Part shown: piece after piece, positions 1,787 to 59,379 of the stretch | How the letters are laid out: each line of letters begins with the position of its first letter | How positions within the stretch are numbered: position 1 is the first letter of the stretch | From: Verrucomicrobiota bacterium | GTDB taxonomy: Bacteria > Verrucomicrobiota > Verrucomicrobiia > Opitutales > Opitutaceae | Assembly (NCBI GenBank): GCA_030601755.1 | Contig: JAUWBF010000006.1 | Coordinates: forward strand, 1-64,000 | Direction: 5' to 3' | Length of the DNA stretch: 64,000 nt | Position numbers and translations under genes: made by a program | Notes under the pieces: generated by a model | Seen by the model: only the letters and a program-made list of their open reading frames with translations | Databases searched by the model: none | Told to the model about the DNA's origin: nothing

Positions 1787-4273
1787 TTAGTAGGTGTCGG
1801 CGAGCGAGCGGTGGGTGAGGGCGGCGGCGAGTCTGGCCTTGGTCGTTGGTTCGGCGAGAGTGATGAGCACTTCCTTCTTTTCGTTCGGGTAGAGGTCGAA
1901 GCCGTTGTCGGTCGCGGTGAAAAAGGCGTCGCCGAACTCGAAGGTGAAGGCGTGCTGGAAGACGGGCGATTCCACGGTGATCAGCGCCTGGGTCGGCGTG
2001 AGCAGGCGAAGGGCGGTCTTGGTCCTGGCCTTGGGCAGATCGAGGAAGCGCGGGGGCGATAGGAAGACGGTCTGCTCGCTGGCGAGCGCGCCGTCCACGT
2101 CGAGCGCGATGCGCAGGTAGAGATTGTCGCGACCGTGCGCGGCCATGGGCTTGGCGAGGTCGAGCGTCTTTTGGCGGATGCTTTCGCCGTGGCGCAGGGC
2201 GACGTTTTTTTTGCCGGCGAGGACGATGTCGCCGGCGAGCGTGAAGAGATCCCAGCGGAGCAGTCCCTTGGCGGGTTTGGGCGCGTCGTAAACGGTGAAG
2301 AGGTGGACCTCGCGCACGGTGGTTGCGCGGTAGTTGCCGACGGTGGCGGTCTCGTCGCCGGGCACGTGGGCGGAGACGAGCGCGGGGGCGTTGAAGCGGC
2401 GCGCGGCGTAGTGGAGCGCCTTCCAGCGGCCGGTGTATTCGATCGAGGACCACGAGGCGACGGGCCAGCAATCGTTGAGCTGCCAATAGATCGCGCCCAT
2501 GCAGCGCGGCATGAGGCGGCGGTAGTGCTCGACGCCGACCTGCATGCAGTAGGCCTGGTTGAGTTGCGAGAGCCAGACGAGAGAGTCCTGATCCTTGGGG
2601 AAGCGGTAGCGTCGGGAGACGTAGTCGAGGATGATCTGGTTGCCGGCGCGGTTCTTCTGATGGTTTTCCATCGAGGGTCCGAAGACGTTGTCGTCGCCGG
2701 GCGGGCAGAAGGTGGCGTTGGTCTGCGGCGAAGAGTAGCTCTGCATGCCGAACTCGGAGCAGAAGCGGAACGACCACTTTTCGTAGTCCTTGACCGGCTT
2801 GCGCACATGCCAGACGTCCCAGAAGTGGGTGTCGCCGCGGATTTCGCCGTGCTCGTGGCCGCCGATGAAATTGCCGCGCCACTCGGAGCTCGGCCAGTAG
2901 GGCGTGGCACCGTCGAAGGCGGCCACGGCGGCGGGCAGCAATTCGTGGAAGATCGCGAGGTAGCCAGCCTTGAACTCGGGTTGATCCAAGAGGTGACCGA
3001 GGTTGAGTTGAACGAGTTCGTTGTTGCCGCACCAGAGTGCGAGGCAGGCGCGGTGATGAAGGCGGGCGACCTGTTGCTCGGCCTCGGTTTTTACGCTGGC
3101 AAGAAACGCTTTGTCGGACGGGTAGAGGTTGCAGGCGAACATGAAGTCCTGCCAGACGAGCAGGCCGAGCTCGTCGCACAGGTCATAAAAATCCTCGCTC
3201 TCGTAGATGCCTCCGCCCCACACGCGGATGCAGTTCATGTTGGCGAGCACGGCGGCGTTGAGATCGCGGGCGTAGGCGGCGCGGTCAAGACGCGTGGCGA
3301 AGCTGTCGGCGGGGATCCAGTTGGCGCCCTTGATGAAGACGGGACGGCCGTTGACGAGGAAGCGGAAGGACTCGCCCCACTGGTCGGGCGAACAGTCGAG
3401 CACGATGGTGCGCAGACCGATGCGCTTGGTGATCGTGCCGAGGTCGCGCCCCTGTGCGTCGCGTGCGGTGACGACGAGGTCGTAGAGCGGTTGTTCGCCC
3501 TGGCCGGCGGGCCACCAGAGCTGCGGTGAGGGCACCTCGAAGCCAAGCTCGGAGGTCGTCACCACGCCGCGCCCACCCAGCGAAAGAGTAACCCAATAGG
3601 TTACTCTTTGAGCAGGGCTTTGAAGCTCGGGAGATAGGGATAGGGAGACGTCGCCGTTTTGGTGGTGGGTCTGCGCGACGTGGACGTGCGCCAGGCGGTT
3701 GGTGGTGCGGGCCTCGAGGCGAAGCCCGCGCCAGATGCCGGCGGTGACGAAGCGCGGTCCCCAGTCCCAGCCGAACTGACATTGTTCCTTGCGGATGCGC
3801 ACGCAGCCGCCGCCCTTGGCGTCGTTGAAATTGTTGGGCGGGGTGAAGTCGGTGCGGGTCTTGGCGATGTAGTCCATCGCGCTGCGGAAGTGCACGACGA
3901 GCTCGTTGCGACCGGCGTGGAGGTGCTTCTTCACGTTCCAACGGTGGGCCACGAACATGTTGTCGGTGGTCGCGATCTTTTTGCCGTTGAGCGTGACCGT
4001 GGCGACGGTGTCGAGGCCGTCGGCGCAGAGTTCGACGATGTCTTCGCGCAGTAGCGCGGCGGTGACGGTGAAGGTAGTCTGGTATTCCCAGTCGCGGTTC
4101 TCGATCCATTGCAGGTCGAGTTCGTTGGTGCCGTAGAAGGGATCGGGAATCTTGCCGGCGGCGATGAGGTCGGTGTGCACGCAGCCGGGCACGGTGGCGG
4201 GCAGCCAGGTCTTGGGGGCGGAGGTGTCGCGGAAGCGCCAGCGGGCGGCGGCGAGGTCGAGGATGGTGGGCAT
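1787..4273 (-). CDS. Beta-mannosidase (GH2)
   Basis: An 828-residue GH2 enzyme that releases beta-1,4-linked mannose from the non-reducing end of manno-oligosaccharides. No signal peptide is seen, so it is probably cytoplasmic. The N-terminal jelly-roll (WRFRDTSAPKTWLPATVPG) is followed by an Ig-like domain and a TIM barrel. The acid/base Glu is in WCGNNEL and the nucleophile Glu in RFCSEFGMQS. I start at the ATG at 4273, because the 30 upstream codons are arginine/proline-rich and not family-like. Residues 222-230 (QRVTYWVTL) are encoded by a 27-bp palindrome found four more times in the window, which is an odd in-frame insertion in the Ig-like domain. The gene is divergent from a XylR-type regulator 83 bp away. 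A decayed copy of its 3' end lies near 16.5 kb. Confidence 0.93.
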   Translation of the reverse strand: MPTILDLAAARWRFRDTSAPKTWLPATVPGCVHTDLIAAGKIPDPFYGTNELDLQWIENRDWEYQTTFTVTAALLREDIVELCADGLDTVATVTLNGKKIATTDNMFVAHRWNVKKHLHAGRNELVVHFRSAMDYIAKTRTDFTPPNNFNDAKGGGCVRIRKEQCQFGWDWGPRFVTAGIWRGLRLEARTTNRLAHVHVAQTHHQNGDVSLSLSPELQSPAQRVTYWVTLSLGGRGVVTTSELGFEVPSPQLWWPAGQGEQPLYDLVVTARDAQGRDLGTITKRIGLRTIVLDCSPDQWGESFRFLVNGRPVFIKGANWIPADSFATRLDRAAYARDLNAAVLANMNCIRVWGGGIYESEDFYDLCDELGLLVWQDFMFACNLYPSDKAFLASVKTEAEQQVARLHHRACLALWCGNNELVQLNLGHLLDQPEFKAGYLAIFHELLPAAVAAFDGATPYWPSSEWRGNFIGGHEHGEIRGDTHFWDVWHVRKPVKDYEKWSFRFCSEFGMQSYSSPQTNATFCPPGDDNVFGPSMENHQKNRAGNQIILDYVSRRYRFPKDQDSLVWLSQLNQAYCMQVGVEHYRRLMPRCMGAIYWQLNDCWPVASWSSIEYTGRWKALHYAARRFNAPALVSAHVPGDETATVGNYRATTVREVHLFTVYDAPKPAKGLLRWDLFTLAGDIVLAGKKNVALRHGESIRQKTLDLAKPMAAHGRDNLYLRIALDVDGALASEQTVFLSPPRFLDLPKARTKTALRLLTPTQALITVESPVFQHAFTFEFGDAFFTATDNGFDLYPNEKKEVLITLAEPTTKARLAAALTHRSLADTY
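3583..3609. repeat. 27-bp palindromic element, copy A, inside beta-mannosidase
   Basis: Arms AAAGAGTAACC and GGTTACTCTTT surround a 5-base centre CAATA. The copy lies fully inside the beta-mannosidase coding sequence and is translated in frame. Identical or nearly identical copies lie at 48219, 48276, 50032 and 50089. Confidence 0.9.
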
Positions 4274-48218: not shown

Positions 48219-48245
48219 AAAGAGTAACCCATTAGGTTACTCTTT
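48219..48245. repeat. 27-bp palindromic element, copy B
   Basis: Arms AAAGAGTAACC/GGTTACTCTTT with centre CATTA, which differs by one base from copy A. It is followed by 30 bp and then copy C, forming a double-hairpin unit in the gap between dus and a lipoprotein gene. Confidence 0.9.
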
Positions 48246-48275
48246 GCTTTTCCGCCTCTCCTCTGAAAACGGCCC

Positions 48276-48301
48276 AAGAGTAACCCAATAGGTTACTCTT
48301 T
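48276..48301. repeat. 27-bp palindromic element, copy C
   Basis: Same centre CAATA as copy A; the first base of the left arm is missing. It lies 30 bp after copy B. Confidence 0.9.
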
Positions 48302-49415: not shown

Positions 49416-49600
49416 CTTGGCCGATGTTTCGTATCTCCGATTTGGAGACGGGCAAGCCGTTTGTTTTTGGTGACTTAACTATGAATCATGGCAATGGGCC
49501 GATAACAAAAACCGCTTCCACCTGGCTTCGGGCGACCGGTGCGATCAGGTGGTCGGACGCTGCAATCGGCTCGCAATTTCTGTGTCGGGCAAGGGCGCCT

Positions 49601-50026
49601 TCAGCCGTCGCCGCGGCGCAGGCGTTTGCGGGTGGCCTCGGGGTTGGCGTCGGGCAGGAGGGTGGACGGATCGCGGCCGGCGGCGCGTTCGGAGAGCCAG
49701 TGCAACAGTCGCAGCATGATCTCGCCGTCGGGGATGCGGCGTCCGTTCACGAAGTCGGTCAGGCGCTGCTTGGGGATGCCGAGGTGGCGTGCGAGCCGGG
49801 TCTTCGCGCCGTAGTCGCCGAGAGCCTTGCGCACCTCCGCGCGCAGCACGTTCCACATGGGGGTGTCGGCGCCCGCCTGCCGGGTTTTCCCGCCGGGGCG
49901 TTTCTGTAGAAGGGCCTTGATCGCGGCGCGGGCGGCGGTCTCGGCGGCAAACGTGGCGGCGGTGCCCATGTCCGCCATCAGTCGCATGCCGTAGGTGTTC
50001 AGGATCGGGTTGGCGGGTTTGTCCAT
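49601..50026 (-). CDS. HTH (Xre/Cro-like) DNA-binding protein
   Basis: A 141-residue protein. The central part GAKTRLARHLGIPKQRLTDF followed by VNGRRIPDGEIMLRLLHWL is a Cro/C1-type helix-turn-helix. The N-terminal half is Ala/Lys-rich without a known domain. It could be an antitoxin-like or phage-type repressor, but no partner toxin is adjacent. Its start codon lies 6 bp from a copy of the palindromic element. Confidence 0.7.
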   Translation of the reverse strand: MDKPANPILNTYGMRLMADMGTAATFAAETAARAAIKALLQKRPGGKTRQAGADTPMWNVLRAEVRKALGDYGAKTRLARHLGIPKQRLTDFVNGRRIPDGEIMLRLLHWLSERAAGRDPSTLLPDANPEATRKRLRRGDG

Positions 50027-50031
50027 GACGC

Positions 50032-50057
50032 AAAGAGTAACCTATTGGGTTACTCTT
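50032..50057. repeat. 27-bp palindromic element, copy D (inverted orientation)
   Basis: Arms AAAGAGTAACC and GGTTACTCTT with centre TATTG, the reverse complement of copies A, C and E. It lies 31 bp before copy E, just upstream of the HTH gene. Confidence 0.9.
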
Positions 50058-50088
50058 CGGCAAGGGCGTCCTCAGAGGTAAAACAGGC

Positions 50089-50115
50089 AAAGAGTAACCC
50101 AATAGGTTACTCTTT
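50089..50115. repeat. 27-bp palindromic element, copy E
   Basis: Identical to copy A. Read on the minus strand its left half supplies the last codons and the TAA stop of the sigma factor gene (GGC AAA GAG TAA), so it has replaced or formed the native gene end. Confidence 0.9.
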
Positions 50116-51423
50116 GCCGGGCGTGGCGGGTGTGCCGGGGGTGGCGCGGTGGGTGGGGTGGGCCGGGTGGGTGAGGAGACGGGCGAGGTGGGCTTGCTCG
50201 GGGGCGACGCGGGCGAGGTCGAGGGCGCGGCGGTAGCTGGCGGCGGCGGACGCGTGGTCGTCGAGGCGGCGGTGGAGGTCGCCGGCCACGGCGTGCAGGA
50301 GGTGGCTTTGGCCGAGGCGGTCGCGGTCGGGGAGGGTGGCCAGGGCGTCGAGGCCGGCGCGGGGGCCATGCACGCGGGCGAGGGCGACGACGTGGTTGAG
50401 CGCGATGATCGGCGAGGGCTTCAGCTTCAACAGCGCGTCGTAGTGCGCGAGGATGCGCGGCCAGTCGGTCGAGGCGTCGTCGGGCGCGGTGCAGTGCAGC
50501 GCGGCGATGCCGGCCTGCAGATGGTATTCGCTGAACTCCGTCGCGGCGGTGGCGGCGGCCAAGTGGACGAGGCCGCGGTCGATGCGCGCGCGGTCCCACT
50601 TGGCGCGATCCTGCTCGTCGAGCCGCAGCAGCGCGCCGTCGGCGTCGAGGCGCGCGGGGAAACGGGCGCCGGTGAGCAGCATGAGCGCGAGCAGGGCGTG
50701 GGCGCGGGGCGTGTTTCCCGCGGGGTGTTCGCAGAGCAACGTGGCGAGCCGGATGGCCTCGTCGCAAAGATCCTCGCGCAACAGGTGGTCGCCGGCGGAG
50801 GCTTTGTAGCCTTCGTTGAAGAGCAGGTAGAGCGCGCCGAGCACGCCGTCGAGGCGCGGCGCAAGATCGGCACCCTCGGGCAACTCGAAGGCGATGCCGG
50901 CGTCCTGGATGCGTTGGCGCGTGCGCGTGAGTTGCTTCTCGATGGCCGACTCGGTGGCGAGAAAGGCGCTGGCAATCTCCGCGGTGGAGAAGCCGCAGAT
51001 AATCTTGAGCGCGAGCACGACCTGTGCGTCGGGCGCGATGTCGGGATGGCCGCACACGAAGAGCAGGCGCAACGTGTCGTCGCGGATGGCGCGGGCGTGG
51101 CCGACCGCGGCCACGGGCGGGGAGGCGGTCTGCTCGATGTGGTAGGCGATGGCGTCCTCCTTGCCGGCGGCCATGCCGCGGTGGCGCAGCGCGTCCTTGG
51201 CGAGGTTCATGGCGACGCGCGTGATCCACGCCGAAGGGTTTTCCGGGATGCCGCCCATCGACCACGCGCGCATGGCGCGCAGCAGGGCTTCCTGCGCGAT
51301 GTCCTCGGCGAGGGCGACGTTGTGCACGCCGAGCAGGCGGATGAGCGCGCCGTGCAGGCGGCCGGTCTCGTGGCGGAAAAAGTGTTCCACCAACCCCTGC
51401 GCGTTGGAGGCGGTCGGGTTCAA
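50107..51423 (-). CDS. ECF42-type RNA polymerase sigma factor with C-terminal TPR-like domain
   Basis: A 438-residue sigma factor, much longer than a plain ECF sigma. The sigma-2 region is VALAEDIAQEALLRAMRAWS, sigma-4 is LALKIICGFSTAEIASAFL, and a long helical C-terminus (LYLLFNEGYKASAGDHL to ASAAASYRRALDLARVAP) matches the DUF6596/TPR part of group ECF42. The start is a TTG at 51423 overlapping the stop of the DGPF/YCII gene (TTGA). ECF42 genes are typically paired with such DGPF proteins. The stop codon lies inside palindromic element E. The signal it answers to is not known. Confidence 0.9.
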   Translation of the reverse strand: MNPTASNAQGLVEHFFRHETGRLHGALIRLLGVHNVALAEDIAQEALLRAMRAWSMGGIPENPSAWITRVAMNLAKDALRHRGMAAGKEDAIAYHIEQTASPPVAAVGHARAIRDDTLRLLFVCGHPDIAPDAQVVLALKIICGFSTAEIASAFLATESAIEKQLTRTRQRIQDAGIAFELPEGADLAPRLDGVLGALYLLFNEGYKASAGDHLLREDLCDEAIRLATLLCEHPAGNTPRAHALLALMLLTGARFPARLDADGALLRLDEQDRAKWDRARIDRGLVHLAAATAATEFSEYHLQAGIAALHCTAPDDASTDWPRILAHYDALLKLKPSPIIALNHVVALARVHGPRAGLDALATLPDRDRLGQSHLLHAVAGDLHRRLDDHASAAASYRRALDLARVAPEQAHLARLLTHPAHPTHRATPGTPATPGKE

Positions 51424-51803
51424 CGGACGGACTTGGTCTTCACCCCGAGGTGGCACTCGCCCATTTGCCGGACCTCGATGATGAGGCCGTATTCGAGGCC
51501 AGGGTGGCGGCGGGCGATGGCGGTGGCCTCGTCGACGTCGGCCACGAGCAGTTTCACGTAGCCGCCGACGGCCTCCTTGGCCTCGGGGAAGGGGCCGTCG
51601 ACCACGCGCGCGCCGCCGGGGCCGGAGACGACGCGGGTCTCGAGCTCGAGCGGCTGGCCCTCGGTGGCCTTGCCCTCGGCGACGAGGTCCTCGAACCAGG
51701 CGTTCCAACGCACGACGAGTTGCTGGCGTTGCTCGGGCGAGAGGTGGGCGTGGGTCTCGGGACCGGTGTTGCGAAAGAGCAGGAGGTAGGCTTGGGGTTC
51801 CAT
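51420..51803 (-). CDS. DGPF/YCII-family protein, partner of the ECF42 sigma factor
   Basis: A 127-residue protein with the YCII ferredoxin-like fold. The hallmark DGPFPEAKEAVGGY is at residues 72-85, and YLLLFRNTGPETH opens the domain. The start at 51803 is preferred over the ATG at 51824 because the family begins with the YLLL strand, and because a putative promoter would put the transcript start close to 51824. The function is undefined; DGPF proteins are the usual targets and neighbours of ECF42 factors. It is translationally coupled to the sigma gene. Confidence 0.9.
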   Translation of the reverse strand: MEPQAYLLLFRNTGPETHAHLSPEQRQQLVVRWNAWFEDLVAEGKATEGQPLELETRVVSGPGGARVVDGPFPEAKEAVGGYVKLLVADVDEATAIARRHPGLEYGLIIEVRQMGECHLGVKTKSVR

Positions 51804-51833
51804 GGTGTCGGCGGAGGGTGTCATACAGCTTAC

Positions 51834-51860
51834 GACGGGTCACGGTCCGTGCGCAGGACA
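51834..51860 (-). promoter_or_regulatory. Candidate ECF promoter for the DGPF-sigma operon
   Basis: Reading leftward, TGTCCT (51860-51855), 17 bp, then CGTC (51837-51834). The spacing and TGTC/CGTC-like boxes resemble ECF promoters. It is mirrored by a similar pair on the other strand at 51886-51912. Confidence 0.5.
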
Positions 51861-51875
51861 GTTTTTTGAAAAAAC
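51861..51875. promoter_or_regulatory. AT-rich perfect palindrome between two ECF-type promoters
   Basis: GTTTTTT-G-AAAAAAC, next to the -35 box of the leftward promoter and 10 bp before that of the rightward one. It could act as an UP element or a regulator site for both directions. Confidence 0.45.
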
Positions 51876-51885
51876 ATCGGGAAAA

Positions 51886-51912
51886 TGTCCGTATCGCCCG
51901 TCCTGCATCGTT
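51886..51912 (+). promoter_or_regulatory. Candidate ECF promoter for the DUF1428 gene
   Basis: TGTCCG (51886-51891), 17 bp, then CGTT (51909-51912), in the same architecture as the leftward promoter. A start near 51919 would leave about 50 bp of leader before the gene at 51971. Confidence 0.45.
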
Positions 51913-51970
51913 GATAGAATGAACGCGCGCCACCCGGCCGCCCCGCCAACCACCCAAAGGAGAGCCTCCC

Positions 51971-52333
51971 ATGCCCGCCTACACCGATGGATTCGTGATT
52001 CCCGTGCCCAAGAAAAACCTCCCGCAATACCGCCGCATGGCCGCCAAGGCCGCCAAGATCTGGCGCGAACACGGCGCGCTCGACTACAAGGAGTGCGTCG
52101 GCGACGACCTCGCGATCAAGGGCGTCATGCCCTTTCCCAAGGGCATCGGTGCCAAGCCGTCCGAGGTGATCGTCTTCTCGTGGATCACCTACAAGTCCCG
52201 CGCGCACCGCGACAAGGTCAACAAGCTCGTCATGGCCGACCCGCGCATCGCCAAGATGTGCGATCCCAAGAAGGCGCCCTTCGACTGCGCGCGCATGCTC
52301 TACGGCGGCTTCAAGGTCATCGTGTCCGCCTGA
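51971..52333 (+). CDS. DUF1428 family protein
   Basis: A 120-residue cytoplasmic protein of the DUF1428 family (dimeric alpha/beta barrel). It opens with YTDGFVIPVPKKNLPQYRRM and contains WREHGALDYKECVGDDL and CARMLYGGFKVIV. A strong ribosome site AAGGAGA lies 7 bp before the ATG. The function is unknown; such genes often accompany ECF42-DGPF loci, as here, where it is divergent from them. Confidence 0.92.
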   Translation: MPAYTDGFVIPVPKKNLPQYRRMAAKAAKIWREHGALDYKECVGDDLAIKGVMPFPKGIGAKPSEVIVFSWITYKSRAHRDKVNKLVMADPRIAKMCDPKKAPFDCARMLYGGFKVIVSA

Positions 52334-52347
52334 GCGTCACGTTTGCC

Positions 52348-52572
52348 ATGGACGCCGCGGATCCGATTGCCGTGCCTTCATCTTTGCCGACGCGTCTTGT
52401 CGCCTTGCGCGGCGAGCTGACCGAGCTGGCCTTCGAACTCGACCAGCGCGGCTCCGGCGACGCGGCGCCCGTCGCCATGATGATCGCGGCCCGCCTCGCC
52501 GAACTGTATCCGGAATCCTCCGACGGAGATTTAGCGCCCTCCATCCACTCCAACCAACCCGCCACCACATGA
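52348..52572 (+). CDS. Small protein of unknown function
   Basis: A 74-residue acidic, Ala/Leu-rich protein (LVALRGELTELAFELDQRGS, VAMMIAARLAELYPES), probably helical and cytoplasmic. No family is recognised. It begins 15 bp after the DUF1428 stop, and its stop overlaps the ATG of the DoxX-like gene (ATGA), so it is likely a real member of this operon. Confidence 0.6.
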   Translation: MDAADPIAVPSSLPTRLVALRGELTELAFELDQRGSGDAAPVAMMIAARLAELYPESSDGDLAPSIHSNQPATT

Positions 52573-52979
52573 GCACCCAACCCGGCAAGATCACCCGCAT
52601 CCTCTCCACCGTCGCGCGCTTCCTTCTCGGACTGCCGCTCGTCGTCTTCGGACTGAACCAGTTCCTCAACTTCATCCCGCAGCCCGAGGTGGAGATGCCC
52701 GATAAGGCCCTGACCTTCGTCGCCGCGCTCATGGACAGCGGCTACATGATGCCGCTGATCGCGATCACCCAGCTCTTCACCGGCGTCTGCCTGCTGACCA
52801 ACCGCTTCGTCGCGCTGGCGATGGTGGTCTTCTTTCCGTTCATGGTGAACAGCATCGCCTTTCACATCTACCTCGAGCCCTCGGGCCTGCCGATGGCGTG
52901 CGCGTTTCTCTTCCTCAACCTCTACCTCGCCTGGGTCCACCGCGCCGCCTATCGCCCGATGCTCACCGCCAAGGCCTGA
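52569..52979 (+). CDS. DoxX-like membrane protein
   Basis: A 136-residue protein with four hydrophobic segments: FLLGLPLVVFGLNQFLNFI, MPLIAITQLFTGVCLLT, VALAMVVFFPFMVNSIAFHI and MACAFLFLNLYLAWVH. This matches the DoxX/DoxD-like fold. Members are linked to redox or thiosulfate metabolism, but the role here is unclear. It lies in the DUF1428-SRPBCC operon. Confidence 0.85.
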   Translation: MSTQPGKITRILSTVARFLLGLPLVVFGLNQFLNFIPQPEVEMPDKALTFVAALMDSGYMMPLIAITQLFTGVCLLTNRFVALAMVVFFPFMVNSIAFHIYLEPSGLPMACAFLFLNLYLAWVHRAAYRPMLTAKA

Positions 52980-52990
52980 CGCTTTTTAAC

Positions 52991-53551
52991 ATGAAAACCT
53001 TTCTCAAGATCATCGCCGTCATCGCGCTCGTCTTCGCGCTGCTGCTGGCCGGCCTCGCCGCCTTCATCGCGACCCGCCCCGCGGACTTCAGCGTCTCGCG
53101 CAGCGCGGTCGTCGCCGCGTCGCCCGCGCGCGTGTTCGACCAGATCAACGACCTGCGCAAGTGGCAGGAGTTCTCCCCGTGGGCGCACCTCGATCCCGAC
53201 GCCAAGGTCGCCTTCTCGGGCCCGCCCGCGGGTGAGGGCGCGTCCTTCGCGTGGGACGGCGACGCGAGCATCGGCGCCGGCAGCATGACGATCATCGAGA
53301 GCCGCCCCGGCGAGCTTGTGCGCTACCGCCTCGACTTTGTGCGTCCCTTCGAGGGCACCAGCGAGTCGTCCCTCGCGCTCGCGCCTGCGCCGGACGGCGG
53401 CACCAATGTCACCTGGACCATGTCCGGCGAGAACAACTTCGTCGGCAAGGCGATCAGCCTCGTCATCGACTGCGAGGAGATGATGGGCCCGCAGTTCGAG
53501 GAGGGGTTGGAAAACCTCCGGCGGGTCGTCGAGCGGCCTTCAGCGCCGTAG
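52991..53551 (+). CDS. SRPBCC-family protein with N-terminal membrane anchor
   Basis: A 186-residue protein. Residues 7-29 form a hydrophobic helix (IIAVIALVFALLLAGLAAFI), and the rest is a START/Bet v1-like (polyketide cyclase 2) domain with VVAASPARVFDQINDLRKW, FSPWAHLDPDA and GGTNVTWTMSGENNF. Such domains bind hydrophobic ligands. It lies 11 bp after the DoxX-like gene in the operon facing the ECF42 locus, so it is likely part of that regulon. Confidence 0.88.
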   Translation: MKTFLKIIAVIALVFALLLAGLAAFIATRPADFSVSRSAVVAASPARVFDQINDLRKWQEFSPWAHLDPDAKVAFSGPPAGEGASFAWDGDASIGAGSMTIIESRPGELVRYRLDFVRPFEGTSESSLALAPAPDGGTNVTWTMSGENNFVGKAISLVIDCEEMMGPQFEEGLENLRRVVERPSAP

Positions 53552-53558
53552 TTGGAAA

Positions 53559-53618
53559 GTAGCGCAGGCTTCCAGCCTGCATCCGGGTTTTCGACGGCAG
53601 GCTGGAAGCCTGCGCTAC
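53559..53618. repeat. Inverted repeat, REP-like hairpin (22-bp arms)
   Basis: Perfectly complementary 22-bp arms at 53559-53580 and 53597-53618 with a 16-bp loop. Each arm contains GCAGGCT and AGCCTGC. It lies 8 bp after the SRPBCC stop and probably ends both convergent transcripts. Confidence 0.85.
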
Positions 53619-53649
53619 TTGTTGGCGGACGTAGGACGCGATCGCCGAC

Positions 53650-53746
53650 GTAGGGGCCTCGCTTGCGAGGCCCGTTGCGTGACAAGCCTCGGAATACGCG
53701 TCATCTCCCGGCCTGCGTGCAACGGGCTTCGCGAGCGAAGCCCCAC
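53650..53746. repeat. Imperfect inverted repeat around a 40-bp loop
   Basis: Arms at 53650-53678 (ending GAGGCCCGTTGC) and 53719-53746 (starting GCAACGGGCTTC) pair with a few mismatches. It lies directly before the end of the giant PEP-CTERM gene and has the same GC-rich style as the neighbouring repeat at 53559. Confidence 0.75.
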
Positions 53747-53755
53747 ATTGCTGCG

Positions 53756-56700
53756 CTACTGGGCGGACGCGTCCACTCGCCGCCGGCGGCGGCAGAGCAG
53801 CGAGCCGACTACGCCGCCGATGAGCAGCGCGCCGGTGGCGGCGGGCTCGGGCACCGGCGTGATCTCGGAGTTGAAATCCTGCCACTTGGTCGGGCTGGTC
53901 CAGCCGGCGAACTGGATCTGGGTGAGCGGCGCCTCGCCCTGCTCCAAGCCGGTGCCGTCGAGCGCGTAGAGATAGTCCTGCCACTCGTCCCAGTTGGTGA
54001 TGGTGAGCGTGGTCGCGCCGTCGATGAAGGTGAGGCTGCCGCTGACGGTGATCACCGCGCCGGTCGAACCGAAGTCGATGATCGAGCTCGCGGTGATGCT
54101 CAGCGCGTCGACCGCGAGGTTGACCCCGTCGCCCAACGCCAGCGTGCCGCCCGCGAGCGTCAGGGTGCCGAAGCTCTGGTCGGCGTTGAGCGTTACCGTG
54201 CCGGAGCCGGTCTTGGTAAAATCGCCCGCGCCGGAGATCGTGCTGTCGATGACGACGTTGCCGTCGCCGCCCACCGTGAGCGCGTGGCCGCCCGCCGCGA
54301 GGGTGCCGGTGAGCGAGAGCGTGCCGGCGTCGGCGAGGATCGACGCCGCCCCGGACAACGTGATCGCGCCGGCGTATTCATTATTCCCCGACGCGTTGTT
54401 CAGCGTGCCGCCGAGGGTGAGCGCCTCGCCCGAAACGGTGATGCCGCCGGAGAGCGCGAGGGTGCCGCCGGCGTTGACCGTGGTGCCGGCGGCGGCGGTG
54501 CCGAGCGCGGAGGCGTCGGTGACGAGCAAGGTGCCGGCGTTGACGGTGGTCGCGCCCGAGTAGGTGTTGGTCGCGGAGAGCGTGAGCGTGCCGGCGCCGT
54601 TTTTGTTGAGCCCGCCGGTGCCGGAGATGACGGCCGACACGTCGATGTCGTGCGCGCCGTTGACCGAGAGGTCGTGGGCGCCGAGTAGCACCGTCGAACC
54701 GCTGATGACGAGGTCGCCGGAGGCGGCGTTCCACGTCTGCGACGCGCCGAGCGCGATGTCGACGCCGAGGGTCTGGGTGGCGGTGGAGTCGTTGTAGATG
54801 CCGCCGCCGCGCACGGTGAGCGTGTCGCCGGTGGAGGAGGTGATGTTGAACGCGCCGGCGTCGTCGCGGAACAGCAGGCTGTGGATGTTGTAGGCGGCGT
54901 TCATGTCGCTCGCCAAGTCGACGGTGCCGGCCATGACGATGGCCTTGCCGTCGCCGACTCCGGGGGCGAGGCCGTCCTCCCAGTTGCCGCCGCGCGACCA
55001 GGCGTTGCGGGGGGAGGGGCCGCTGTCGTTGCCGCCCTGCCAAACGAAGGTCTGGATGGGGCGGATCTCGTAGTTGCCGCCGTTGAGGCCGTAGATCTCG
55101 GCGCCGATGCCCACGCCGATGCCGTCGAAGAAGATGTTGTCGAGGAACGTCTGGTCGAGGGCGTTGGTGGCGGAGGCGAACACGTCGGAGCCGACCGTCC
55201 AGTTGCGGATGACCAGCGCGCCGCTGCCCGTGCCGTCGTCGGCGAAGACGAAGCTGGTGCCGCTGCCGGCGGTGCCGAAGTCGAGCACGCCGTTGTTGTA
55301 GGAGAGCACGCCGACGGTCTCGGAGAACGTGCCGCCGAGCGAGAGCGTGCCGCCGGCGAGGTTGAGCGCGGAGGTGTCGGCGATGCGGTTGGACGCGCCG
55401 AGCAGCAACGTGCCGCCGGACACGGTGGTCGCGCCGGTGTAGGTGTTGGCGCCGGTGAGCGTGAAGGTGCCGGAACCGGTCTTGGTCAGGCCGCCGGTGC
55501 CGGAGACGACGCCGGCGAAGGTGGAGTCGGTGTTGTCGCCGCCGGTGGTGAGCGTGGCCGATCCCAGCGTGACGACCGAGCCGGTGTTGAGCGAGTGGAG
55601 CGAGCCGATGGTCTCGGAGTGGTTGTTGAGGTTGAACGTCGGCGTGCCACCCGCGGAGAGCGTGACGCGCGAGGTGTCGGCGATCTGGTTGGCGGCATCG
55701 AGTCGCAGCGTGTCGGTGCCGCTGCCGTCGCCGAGCACGACCTCGCCGACGACGGCGTTGCCGGAGGTCTTGGCGAGGACGAGGGTGCCGGCGTTGACGG
55801 TGGTGGTGCCGGTGTAGGTGTTGGCGGACGAGCCGTTGAGCGTGAGGGTGCCGCCGTCGACGGTGACGACGCCGGAGCCGGAGATGACGCCGCCGTAGGC
55901 GTTGGTGCCGGCGGACTGGGTGAGCGTGCCGCCGAGCGCGAGGGCCTCGGCGCCGACGGTGATGTTGTTGGCGAGCTGCAACGTCGCGCCGGCGGAGACG
56001 GTGGTGCCGGCGGCGGTGGAGCCGAGCGCGGCGGAGTTTTGCAGGACGATGGTGCCGGTGGTGATCGTGGTGGCGCCCGAGTAGGTGTTGGCACCGGAGA
56101 GGGTGAAGGTGCCGGTGCCGGACTTGGCGAGGCCGCCGGTGCCGGAGACGATGCCGGCGAAGGTGGTCGAGGTGTTGTCGCCGCCGGTGGTCAGCGTGGC
56201 CGAGCCGAGCGTGACGGCGGCGGTGGTGTTGGCCGAGGCGAGCGAGCCGATGGTCTCGGCGTTGTTGTTGAGATTAAAGACGGCGGAGTCGCTGGAGAGC
56301 GTGACGCGGGAGGTGTCGGCGATCTGGTTGGCGGCGTCGAGGCGGAGGGTGCCGGGGCCGAGCACGACCTCGCCGATGACGGCGTTGCCGGAGGTCTTGG
56401 CGAGGGCGAGGGTGCCGGCGTTGACGGTGGTCGTGCCGGAGTAGGTGTTGGCGGCCGAGCCGTTGAGGGTGAGCGTGCCGCCGTCGACGGTGACGACGCC
56501 GGAGCCGGAGATGACGCCGCCGTAGGCGTTGGCGCCGGAGGACTGGGTGAGCGTGCCGTTGAGCGCGAGGGCCTCGGCGCCGACGGTGATGTTGTTCTCG
56601 AGCCGCAACGTGGCGCCGGCGGAGACGGTGGTGCCGGCGGCGGTGGAGCCGAGCGCGGCGGCGTTGCGCAGGACGACGGTGCCCTCGGTGATCGCGGTGG

Positions 56701-59245
56701 CGCCGGTGTAGGTGTTGGCGCCGGCGAGGATGAGCTCGCCGCCGGTGCCGAGCGTGGTGAGCCCGCCCGCGCCGGAGAGCTCGCCGGAGAGCGTGAGGTC
56801 GCCCGCGCCGGAGACCTCGACGAAGGTGTTTTTGACGAGGATGATCGGCGCGATGATCGTTTGGTCGGCGGTGGAGGCCTGGATGATGGAGGGCACGACG
56901 CCGTCGAAGGTGAACTCGCGGCCGGCGTTGGCGGTGATGGTGAACGCGGCGGCGGTGGCCTCGAACTTCAGGCGGTTGAGGGTGTAGTCGGCGTTGAGGT
57001 TGGGGCCGGTGCGGGTGGCGCCGTCGAAGGCGATGCTGGTGGTGTCGCCGGAGCCGGGGGCGCTGTCGCCGACCCAGTTGGCGTTGTTGTTGAAGTTGTT
57101 GTTGGCGCCGCCGCCGTCCCACACGGAGAAGGTCGGCACGTTGGCGACGATGGAGGTCCAGTCGCCGTTGACGGCCCCGATCTGGCCGGCGCCGATGCCG
57201 GAGAAGTAGATGTTTTCGAGGAAGCTGGTCGCGGGCGTGCCGAGGGTGTGGTTGAAGGCGAGCAGATCGACGCCCGACTCCCAGTTGACGACGGTGAGGG
57301 TGCCGGTGGCGGTGCCGGCCGTGCCGAAGAGGAAGCTGTTGGCCGTGCCGGTCGTGCCGAAGTCGAGCGTGGCGTTGCCAAAACTGAGCGAGGCGACCTC
57401 GACGGAATAGGCCCCGCCGAGCGAGAAGGTGCCGCCGGTTTGGATGTCGAGCGTGGCGGATGCGCCGATGGCGTTGGACGCGCCGAGCGTGAGCGTGCCC
57501 TCGGCGACCGCGGCGGTGCCGGAGAAGCTGTTGGCGCCGGAGAGGGTGAGGTTGCCCGCGCCGGACTTTGTGAGGTCGCCGGAGCCGGAGACGACGCCGA
57601 CGTAGGTGCCGTCGGCGGCTTGGGCGAAGACGAGGTCGGCGTGGTTGACGATGTCGCCCTGGAGGGAGGCGGAGTCACCTTGTAGTGTGCCGGCGGATAC
57701 GGTGGTTCCTCCGGAGTAGGTGTTGGCCCCGGAGAGGGCGAGGGTGCCGGAGCCGGTTTTGACGAGGGCACCGGTGCCGGAGATGACGCCAGCGTAGTTG
57801 CCGGAGCCGACGGTGAGGGTGGCGGAGCCGAGGTTGACGTTGCCGCCGGTGGAGCCGCCGCCGGAGAGGGAACCGATGGTCTCGGAGTTGGCGAGGGCGA
57901 GGGTGGCACCGGAGGTGTTGGCGAGCGAGACGGCGGCGGAGTCGGCGAGCGCGGTGCCTCCGGAGAGGGTGAGCGTGCCGGCGCTAACGTTGGCGGTGCC
58001 GGAGAAGGTGTTGGCGCCGGAGAGGGTGAGGTTGCCGGAGCCGGACTTGGTGAGCCCACCGGAGCCGGAGACGACGCCGGCGTAGGTGCCGTCGGAGGCT
58101 TGGGCGAAGACGAGGGCGGCGTGGTTGACGATGTCGCCTTGGAGGGATGTCGAGTCGCCCTGTAATGTGCCCGCGGATACGGTGGTGCCGCCGGAGTAGG
58201 TGTTGGCCCCGGAGAGCGCGAGGGTGCCGGCGGTGTTTTTGACGAGGGCACCGGTGCCGGAGATGACGCCAGCGTAGTTGCCGGAGCCGACGGTGAGGGT
58301 GGCGGAGCCGAGGTTGACGTTGCCGCCGGTGGAGCCGCCGCCGGAGAGGGAGCCGATGGTCTCGGAGTTGGCGAGGGCGAGGGTGGCGCCGGAGGTGTCG
58401 GCGAGCGAGACGGCGGCGGAGTCGGCGAGCGCGGAGCCGCCGGAGAGGGTGAGCGTGCCGGCGCTGACGTTGGCGGTGCCGGAAAAGGTGTTGGCGCCGG
58501 AGAGCGTGAGGTTGCCGGAGCCGGACTTGGTGAGGTCGCCTGAGCCGGAGACGACGCCGGCGTAAGTGCCGTCGGAGGCCTGGGCGAAGACGAGGGCGGC
58601 GTGGTTGACGATGTTGCCCTGCAGGGAGGTGGAGTCGCCTTGTAAGGTTCCCGCGGATACGGTGGTGCCGCCCGAGTAGGTGTTGGCCCCGGAAAGGGTG
58701 AGCGTGCCGGAGCCGGTCTTGGCGAGCGAACCGGTGCCGGAGACGACGCCGGAGAGGGTGGTGTTCGCGGAGCCGGTGAGGGTGAGGGCGAAGTTGTTGG
58801 TGACGTTGCCGCCGATGGCGAGGTCGCCGGCGAGGGCGGCCCAGGACTGGTTGGCGCCGGTGATGATGGCGTGGTCGATGGTCTGGGTCTGGTCGTCGTC
58901 GTTGCGGATCGCGTGGGTGACCGCGGTGCCGTTGATGGTGACGTTGTTGCCGGTGAGAGTGAAGGCGCCGGCGGTGCTGCTGAAGGCGATCGAGTTGATC
59001 GACCAGTCGCCGTTGGTCTCGGGGGTGAGGCGGACGGTGCCCGCGAAGATCAGGTCAGCGGTGCCGTCGTTGGCGGGGGCGCCGTTGGGGTTCCAGTTGT
59101 TTTTGTCGGTCCAGCGGCTTTGCCCGCCGTGTCCGCCGTCCCACGTGAAGGTGGCGGCATCCATTTGCGGGCATGCATACACAATAAAGGCCAGCACACC
59201 GAGCGCACGTATGCGCGGCACCGGTGGGAAGTAGGCCAATGGCAT
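53756..59245 (-). CDS. Giant autotransporter-repeat PEP-CTERM surface protein
   Basis: A 1829-residue exported protein starting at the ATG at 59245 (signal peptide IRALGVLAFIVYACPQMDA). The body is built of many autotransporter-associated beta-strand repeats with consensus like G.G.L..SGANTYSGGTTVSAGTL, forming a long parallel beta-helix. The C-terminus is VPEPAATGALLIGGVVG followed by RRRRR, a PEP-CTERM signal. It has no outer-membrane barrel, so it is anchored by exosortase rather than self-transported. Within it a DNA unit of 480 bp is repeated about two and a half times. Probably an adhesin or matrix protein. A palindrome GAATTTG...CAAATTC lies about 50-75 bp upstream of the start. Confidence 0.9.
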   Translation of the reverse strand: MPLAYFPPVPRIRALGVLAFIVYACPQMDAATFTWDGGHGGQSRWTDKNNWNPNGAPANDGTADLIFAGTVRLTPETNGDWSINSIAFSSTAGAFTLTGNNVTINGTAVTHAIRNDDDQTQTIDHAIITGANQSWAALAGDLAIGGNVTNNFALTLTGSANTTLSGVVSGTGSLAKTGSGTLTLSGANTYSGGTTVSAGTLQGDSTSLQGNIVNHAALVFAQASDGTYAGVVSGSGDLTKSGSGNLTLSGANTFSGTANVSAGTLTLSGGSALADSAAVSLADTSGATLALANSETIGSLSGGGSTGGNVNLGSATLTVGSGNYAGVISGTGALVKNTAGTLALSGANTYSGGTTVSAGTLQGDSTSLQGDIVNHAALVFAQASDGTYAGVVSGSGGLTKSGSGNLTLSGANTFSGTANVSAGTLTLSGGTALADSAAVSLANTSGATLALANSETIGSLSGGGSTGGNVNLGSATLTVGSGNYAGVISGTGALVKTGSGTLALSGANTYSGGTTVSAGTLQGDSASLQGDIVNHADLVFAQAADGTYVGVVSGSGDLTKSGAGNLTLSGANSFSGTAAVAEGTLTLGASNAIGASATLDIQTGGTFSLGGAYSVEVASLSFGNATLDFGTTGTANSFLFGTAGTATGTLTVVNWESGVDLLAFNHTLGTPATSFLENIYFSGIGAGQIGAVNGDWTSIVANVPTFSVWDGGGANNNFNNNANWVGDSAPGSGDTTSIAFDGATRTGPNLNADYTLNRLKFEATAAAFTITANAGREFTFDGVVPSIIQASTADQTIIAPIILVKNTFVEVSGAGDLTLSGELSGAGGLTTLGTGGELILAGANTYTGATAITEGTVVLRNAAALGSTAAGTTVSAGATLRLENNITVGAEALALNGTLTQSSGANAYGGVISGSGVVTVDGGTLTLNGSAANTYSGTTTVNAGTLALAKTSGNAVIGEVVLGPGTLRLDAANQIADTSRVTLSSDSAVFNLNNNAETIGSLASANTTAAVTLGSATLTTGGDNTSTTFAGIVSGTGGLAKSGTGTFTLSGANTYSGATTITTGTIVLQNSAALGSTAAGTTVSAGATLQLANNITVGAEALALGGTLTQSAGTNAYGGVISGSGVVTVDGGTLTLNGSSANTYTGTTTVNAGTLVLAKTSGNAVVGEVVLGDGSGTDTLRLDAANQIADTSRVTLSAGGTPTFNLNNHSETIGSLHSLNTGSVVTLGSATLTTGGDNTDSTFAGVVSGTGGLTKTGSGTFTLTGANTYTGATTVSGGTLLLGASNRIADTSALNLAGGTLSLGGTFSETVGVLSYNNGVLDFGTAGSGTSFVFADDGTGSGALVIRNWTVGSDVFASATNALDQTFLDNIFFDGIGVGIGAEIYGLNGGNYEIRPIQTFVWQGGNDSGPSPRNAWSRGGNWEDGLAPGVGDGKAIVMAGTVDLASDMNAAYNIHSLLFRDDAGAFNITSSTGDTLTVRGGGIYNDSTATQTLGVDIALGASQTWNAASGDLVISGSTVLLGAHDLSVNGAHDIDVSAVISGTGGLNKNGAGTLTLSATNTYSGATTVNAGTLLVTDASALGTAAAGTTVNAGGTLALSGGITVSGEALTLGGTLNNASGNNEYAGAITLSGAASILADAGTLSLTGTLAAGGHALTVGGDGNVVIDSTISGAGDFTKTGSGTVTLNADQSFGTLTLAGGTLALGDGVNLAVDALSITASSIIDFGSTGAVITVSGSLTFIDGATTLTITNWDEWQDYLYALDGTGLEQGEAPLTQIQFAGWTSPTKWQDFNSEITPVPEPAATGALLIGGVVGSLLCRRRRRVDASAQ
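55444..56727. repeat. Diverged tandem repeat of about 640 bp inside the giant gene
   Basis: The stretch starting TGTTGGCGCCGG at 55444 recurs 642 bp later at 56086 and again at 56713. The protein equivalent is a unit of about 214 residues containing GGVISGSGVVTVDGGTLTLN. Copies differ at many third positions, so they are older than the 480-bp repeat. Confidence 0.75.
57511..58720. repeat. 480-bp tandem DNA repeat, about 2.5 copies
   Basis: The line TGTTGGCCCCGGA appears at 57721, 58201 and 58681, exactly 480 bp apart, and long near-identical stretches surround each. The unit is 160 codons and in frame, so copy number can change without breaking the protein. Confidence 0.9.
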
Positions 59246-59293
59246 TGTGTTGCGAGCAGTCTGTATCAACGGTCGATCACCCCTTCTTGCAGA

Positions 59294-59322
59294 GAATTTG
59301 TAATAAAAATTTAAGCAAATTC
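59294..59322. promoter_or_regulatory. Palindrome upstream of the giant PEP-CTERM gene
   Basis: Arms GAATTTG and CAAATTC with a 15-bp AT-rich centre, in the region upstream of the ATG at 59245. This is a candidate protein-binding site or part of the promoter. No further evidence. Confidence 0.35.
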
Positions 59323-59379
59323 CCTCGGGGCGCGACCCAGCAAACAGGCCCAATCCGGCGGTGCCGAAACAGACCTATA

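Follow-up and report, generated by a model that had tools for sequence, protein, structure and literature searches.

The window analysed here is a 64 kb stretch of a 3.55 Mb draft genome in 152 contigs, and it contains two divergent operons with one intergenic region between them (Table 1). The leftward operon has a YCII/DGPF gene directly upstream of an ECF42 sigma factor gene, an arrangement that is kept in relatives, and the rightward operon runs from a DUF1428 gene through a DoxX-like gene to an SRPBCC gene. The matches for YCII, ECF42 with DUF6596, DUF1428 and Polyketide_cyc2 all lie above the Pfam cut-off and that for DoxX does not; the DoxX-like gene is a conserved neighbour in relatives. 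The sigma factor possesses ECF regions 2 and 4, as evidenced by matches to PF04542 and PF08281 above cut-off, and a C-terminal extension of ~260 residues after region 4, which was matched by PF20239 (DUF6596) with 124.9 bits and in which Pfam detected no TPR repeats at E 0.001. Both DUF6596 and DUF1428 have a single match in the whole genome, the former being the ECF42 gene itself.

Table 1. Genes and sequence features at the two divergent operons, in window coordinates.
Feature	Position	Strand	Details
ECF42 sigma factor gene	50107..51426	-	Pfam: region 2, region 4, C-terminal DUF6596; exact start uncertain
YCII/DGPF gene	51420..51824	-	Pfam PF03795, 41.5 bits; start may be ATG 51824 or downstream ATG 51803
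YCII-ECF42 operon promoter (predicted)	51834..51860	-	-35 TGTCCT 51855-51860, 17 bp spacer, -10 CGTC 51834-51837
GTTTTTTGAAAAAAC palindrome	51861..51875	.	T6 half 51862-51867 not conserved
A6 tract	51869..51874	+	-12 to -17 from right -35; as T6, -9 to -14 from left -35
DUF1428-DoxX-SRPBCC operon promoter (predicted)	51886..51912	+	-35 TGTCCG 51886-51891, 17 bp spacer, -10 CGTT 51909-51912
DUF1428 gene	51971..52333	+	Pfam PF07237, 127.9 bits; first gene of divergent operon
DoxX-like membrane protein gene	52569..52979	+	PF07681, 22.0 bits vs cut-off 23.6 (just below)
SRPBCC (Polyketide_cyc2) gene	52985..53551	+	PF10604, 53 bits

Other features lie around these operons. A small protein at 49601-50026 (-) has weak HTH_3 and YdaS matches, both below the Pfam cut-off, and adjoins paired palindromes. 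A dispersed palindrome, GAGTAACC-YAWT-GGGTTACTC, is found at ~33 places in the genome, with window copies at 50035-50112, 48222-48298 and 3586-3606; its copies are often paired, 45-68 bp apart, and resemble the REP/REPIN family, and one copy, directly 3' of the ECF42 stop codon, was additionally scored as a hairpin of terminator-like type. A very long frame at 53756-59353 (-), with repeated 'LSGANTYSGGTTV' units and a PEP-like tail at the C-terminus, appears by eye to encode an autotransporter-type repeat protein.

Two opposed promoter motifs and their conservation

The first-pass annotation had described the intergenic region as a pair of mirror-image ECF-type promoters, TGTCCT-17-CGTC leftward and TGTCCG-17-CGTT rightward, and both sequences are present exactly where it placed them, with the two -35 elements only 25 bp apart. 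The sites are indeed opposed, but the symmetry is not strict, since the AT palindrome between them directly adjoins the left -35 and is separated from the right -35 by 10 bp. In the 64 kb window the 28-mer TGTCC-N18-CGTYG has 2 matches where 0.62 would be expected, and shuffling produced at least as many in 12 of 100 trials. The pair of pattern matches in the window alone is thus weak evidence, for which chance is possible, and it is the comparative data, not pattern counts within the window, that rule chance out as the explanation.

Sites were scored with a matrix trained on 54 sites of relatives, with the window left out; the training sites had been selected with the core given in the first-pass annotation, meaning that the core columns are imposed and columns 22-23 and 28 are free. 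The rightward site, at 51886(+), scored 24.7, the best of the 64 kb, and the leftward site, at 51860(-), came second with 15.2, the next score being 13.8. In 200 windows simulated from an order-1 Markov model, a score of 15.15 was reached or exceeded 0.29 times per 64 kb, and one of 24.7 a mean of 0.000 times. The leftward site scores lower than every one of the 54 training sites (17.8-32.1), and, as two matches elsewhere in the genome outscore it (see below), by score alone it could be a product of chance.

Searching with the sigma protein as query returned 80 loci, mainly verrucomicrobial in one set (L003-L041) and from other phyla in the second (L042-L082). YCII precedes the sigma gene at nearly all loci of the first set, at which the opposite strand often carries a DUF1428, DoxX or SRPBCC relative, in variable order. 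Enough upstream DNA for the motif count was available at 37 of the 39 verrucomicrobial loci, at which TGTCC-N18-CGTY points toward YCII-ECF42 in 30, faces away in 26 and does both in 24; dinucleotide shuffles of the same loci gave means of 0.125 leftward, 0.14 rightward and 0 for both. Other spacers occur in 0-2 loci each, except spacer 13, the excess of which we attribute to the GTTCGTT -10 region being matched out of register. With the broader expression TGTC-N18..21-CG[AT][CT], 53 of 59 matches at the verrucomicrobial loci, by our own count, had the form TGTCC-N18-CGT[CT]. Six of the seven loci that lack a strict leftward site have a version with one mismatch, and L021 has none. At L027 and L034, upstream of YCII, the first -35 base is A/G/C instead of T in both promoters, which is suggestive of a drift in -35 preference.

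Outside Verrucomicrobia, TGTC-N19-CG[AT][CT] was found on the YCII-ward side of 28 of the 41 loci, and facing away at one. Given that the site facing away is present at 26/37 verrucomicrobial loci vs 1/41 others, the opposed arrangement looks like a verrucomicrobial addition.

It could be argued that only the rightward site works, the leftward one having decayed, with the YCII-ECF42 operon driven from elsewhere and no autoregulation. This would agree with the difference in score (15.2 leftward vs 24.7 rightward) and with the results reported for RpoE10, the ECF42 factor of S. meliloti, the overexpression of which did not raise its own YCII-rpoE10 operon, although the motif is present there (PMC6180224). 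The leftward site nevertheless is positioned and spaced as expected and has its tract, 30/37 and 28/41 loci retain the YCII-ward site, only ~0.0003 such scores are expected by chance within 150 bp of any one gene, and a scan of 49500-54000 found no sigma-70-like promoter upstream of the YCII-ECF42 operon. Decay of the leftward site is considered unlikely. Autoregulation, as the first-pass annotation had predicted, is likely for the YCII-ECF42 operon; the conserved position of the YCII-side site across phyla would support it, whilst the weak score and the absence of self-induction by S. meliloti RpoE10 speak against it.

Motif distribution and predicted regulon

The first-pass annotation had also proposed a search for other TGTCC-type sites, and this uncovered a predicted regulon, with a motif that follows the presence of ECF42 across 120 genomes of the family, 51 with DUF6596 (scored as carrying ECF42) and 69 without. 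The strict 17-spacer consensus has 104 matches in 30 of the 51 carrier genomes, being absent from the remaining 21, and 12 matches in 11 of the 69 non-carriers (Fisher 1.7e-6). An off-register control, the same pattern with a spacer of 18, has 47 matches in carriers vs 41 in non-carriers; it is slightly commoner in carriers when counted by genome (31/51 vs 27/69, P 0.026), which is probably due to genome size. The association is not confined to the sigma locus, as matches >10 kb from the ECF42 gene number 73 in 27/51 carriers vs 12 in 11/69 non-carriers (P 2.4e-5), and permutation of these distant matches within the 16 genera having both states gave P 0.005. Together with conservation at 30/37 and 26/37 loci and the first and second ranks in the matrix scan, this co-occurrence bears out the earlier reading of both sites as ECF-type promoters, here of the ECF42 type.

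A first downstream ORF was assigned to 113 of the 116 sites, carriers and non-carriers pooled, and the Pfam families among these were AHSA1 (25), 3-dmu-9_3-mt (15), YCII (14), DUF1428 (8), RibD_C (8), Glyoxalase (6) and DUF899 (4). When the 12 non-carrier sites were compared by hand, only L268 proved to belong to a cluster of downstream proteins that recur.

In the genome from which the window comes, TGTCC-N18-CGTYG occurs at 16 places, five of which score >23. Besides the rightward site of the window, these are L086, L087, L088 and L097, which lie before genes of the 3-dmu-9_3-mt, Glyoxalase, AHSA1 and ABC ATPase families, respectively. Most of the remaining matches (score <=23) overlap reading frames, and two that do so score 16.6 and 16.0, above the leftward site. 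The L097 site, with a score of 24.9 and a position 98 nt before the ABC-transporter ATPase frame, is not counted in the firm regulon; ABC ATPase genes are also found after a site in two relatives. Overall, the prediction of ECF42 promoters with a regulon is well supported by these comparisons.

The A/T tract between the predicted promoters

The palindrome GTTTTTTGAAAAAAC, which the first-pass annotation had placed at the centre of the region as an element shared by both promoters, is present as claimed. Its length is odd and its central base therefore cannot pair. Its arm length of 7 in the window beats shuffles (P 0.003). This arm length, and a different perfect 20-bp AT palindrome at the equivalent position of L018, would be in keeping with an operator at which a further repressor or activator controls both operons. 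Most of the 24 intergenic gaps scored (the window and 23 relatives), however, contain no comparable palindrome, the two long ones are unlike in sequence, and only the A/T run at a fixed distance recurs, so that the palindrome was rejected as a conserved operator and control by a separate regulator appears improbable. The palindrome is lacking in most relatives and is not supported as the shared central element; of its two halves only A6 has a conserved counterpart, in the form of an A/T tract upstream of both -35 elements.

Relatives instead share an A/T run, which lies 9-17 bp upstream of each -35. Among the 104 carrier promoters, A/T runs of at least four overlap -16 to -11 in 53, compared with 14-16 per six-base step beyond -31, and single-letter A/T runs of at least four are found at 36/104 carrier sites, 0/12 non-carrier sites and 0/30 spacer-18 sites. 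A tract at a fixed distance upstream of the -35 is what is expected of an UP element, and A6 is probably an UP-element-like tract; since the -35s are only 25 bp apart, this one tract would be common to both promoters.

The same geometry is found in relatives. The -35s are 22-28 bp apart in 10 of the 24 relatives with both sites (P 2e-7 vs a flat spread, uncorrected for relatedness). All ten pairs with gaps of 23-26 bp, the window included, have one run correctly distanced from both -35s; a pair with a gap of 28 has no shared run, two pairs at 31-32 do share one, and pairs with gaps of at least 37 never do. For the 11 compact gaps, a shared run is present in 10 vs a shuffle mean of 4.8 (P 0.0004). 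It may be, and we offer this only as a tentative suggestion, that in compact pairs the single A/T tract serves as UP element for both opposed ECF42 promoters, such that two holoenzymes compete for it, and that the 23-26 bp spacing is selected and sets the split between sigma factor and output in Opitutaceae lineages with a target operon beside the sigma gene.

Relation to known systems and a model of the locus

The sigma factor resembles those of the ECF42 group (S. meliloti RpoE10, Streptomyces venezuelae Sven_0747 and Pseudomonas putida ECF-10) in its regions 2 and 4, C-terminal extension, upstream YCII gene and TGTC-17-CGTC promoters (PMC6180224, PMC8999054), and its own operon is preceded by a predicted promoter of the form TGTC-N-17-CG[AT], as expected of this group. 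Mapped promoters of S. meliloti RpoE10 read TGTCGG-17-CGTC (PMC6180224), and the -35 differs accordingly, being TGTCC here vs TGTCGG in the two promoters of Table 1 in that paper that we read as RpoE10-dependent. Overexpression of RpoE10 raises six genes, including those for a hydrophobic-ligand-binding protein and glyoxalase-like proteins (PMC6180224), and glyoxalase-like genes occur in the regulon predicted here as well. Unlike in these known systems, a second predicted promoter in the window faces away, into the DUF1428-DoxX-SRPBCC operon. ECF42 factors with TGTC-17-CGTC promoters are already known from S. meliloti, and what the locus adds is a new example and the shared-tract geometry. Literature searches for DGPF with ECF42, for YCII with a sigma factor and glyoxalase, and for DUF1428 with DoxX returned no paper, and a search on Verrucomicrobia ECF sigma factors and promoter motifs returned the ECF41 paper only.

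Alternatively, the sites might be those of a different ECF group that has a comparable promoter. The foremost candidate is ECF41/SigJ, the consensus of which is TGTCACA-n16-CGTC with a spacer of 16 +/- 1 and COE target genes (PMC3426412). The sites and this consensus share a -35 that starts with TGTC, a CGTC -10 and a sigma factor with a C-terminal extension (PMC3426412), and the genome does encode a SigJ-type sigma factor (NF007214, 348 bits vs a cut-off of 271), but the sites in the window read TGTCCT and TGTCCG, with CK and not AC at bases 5-6 and a spacer fixed at 17, the matches follow ECF42 presence in the 120 genomes (tallied for ECF42), and the SigJ operon has its own promoter, GGTCACA-16-CGTC, such that the two kinds are distinct within one genome; ECF41 is very unlikely to be the cognate sigma factor. 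On contig C39 of genome G000 (L283, 760-890; L087 as well), a SigJ/ECF41-type sigma operon with GGTCACA-16-CGTC and a Glyoxalase gene with TGTCCG-17-CGTT diverge from one intergenic region, in which predicted promoters of two sigma groups, ECF42-type and ECF41-type, face each other.

We consider it highly probable that the intergenic region contains two divergent promoters of the adjacent ECF42 sigma factor, with feedback, a distant regulon and an UP tract. The C-terminal extension of ECF42 probably gates its activity, perhaps together with a YCII partner; a review of the group describes the extension as essential and YCII as a likely partner (PMC8999054). When active, ECF42 would direct RNA polymerase to TGTCC-N18-CGTY, and firing leftward into its own YCII-ECF42 operon would provide positive feedback, with rightward firing serving the DUF1428-DoxX-SRPBCC operon. 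The predicted starts, at ~51825 leftward and ~51921 rightward, are extrapolated from one S. meliloti RpoE10 promoter with a start 9 nt after CGTC (PMC6180224). The A/T tract, ~9-17 bp upstream of each -35, is probably an UP element to which the alpha C-terminal domains of the polymerase bind. Synthetic UP elements (-35 to -60) restored ECF promoters of GC-rich genomes in E. coli (PMC3817407), and the tract is similar to these in being A/T-rich DNA upstream of the -35, with the difference that it is natural, and that in compact pairs a single tract is suitably spaced from both of the opposed promoters. The same promoter is predicted at a minimum of three distant transcription units of the genome, one with an AHSA1 gene and two with glyoxalase/VOC-like genes. 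Expression of the sigma gene is thus probably coupled to that of a small group of uncharacterised, detoxification-like genes.

ECF42 sigma factors are widespread, and their targets are known in few organisms. We know of no signal described for ECF42 and, to our knowledge, there has been little promoter work in the phylum Verrucomicrobiota. This analysis provides a promoter code that can be tested, with a predicted regulon of AHSA1/SRPBCC, glyoxalase-like, YCII, DUF1428, DoxX, RibD_C and DUF899 genes, and one A/T tract between two opposed promoters offers a simple geometry in which competition between feedback and output may be measured.
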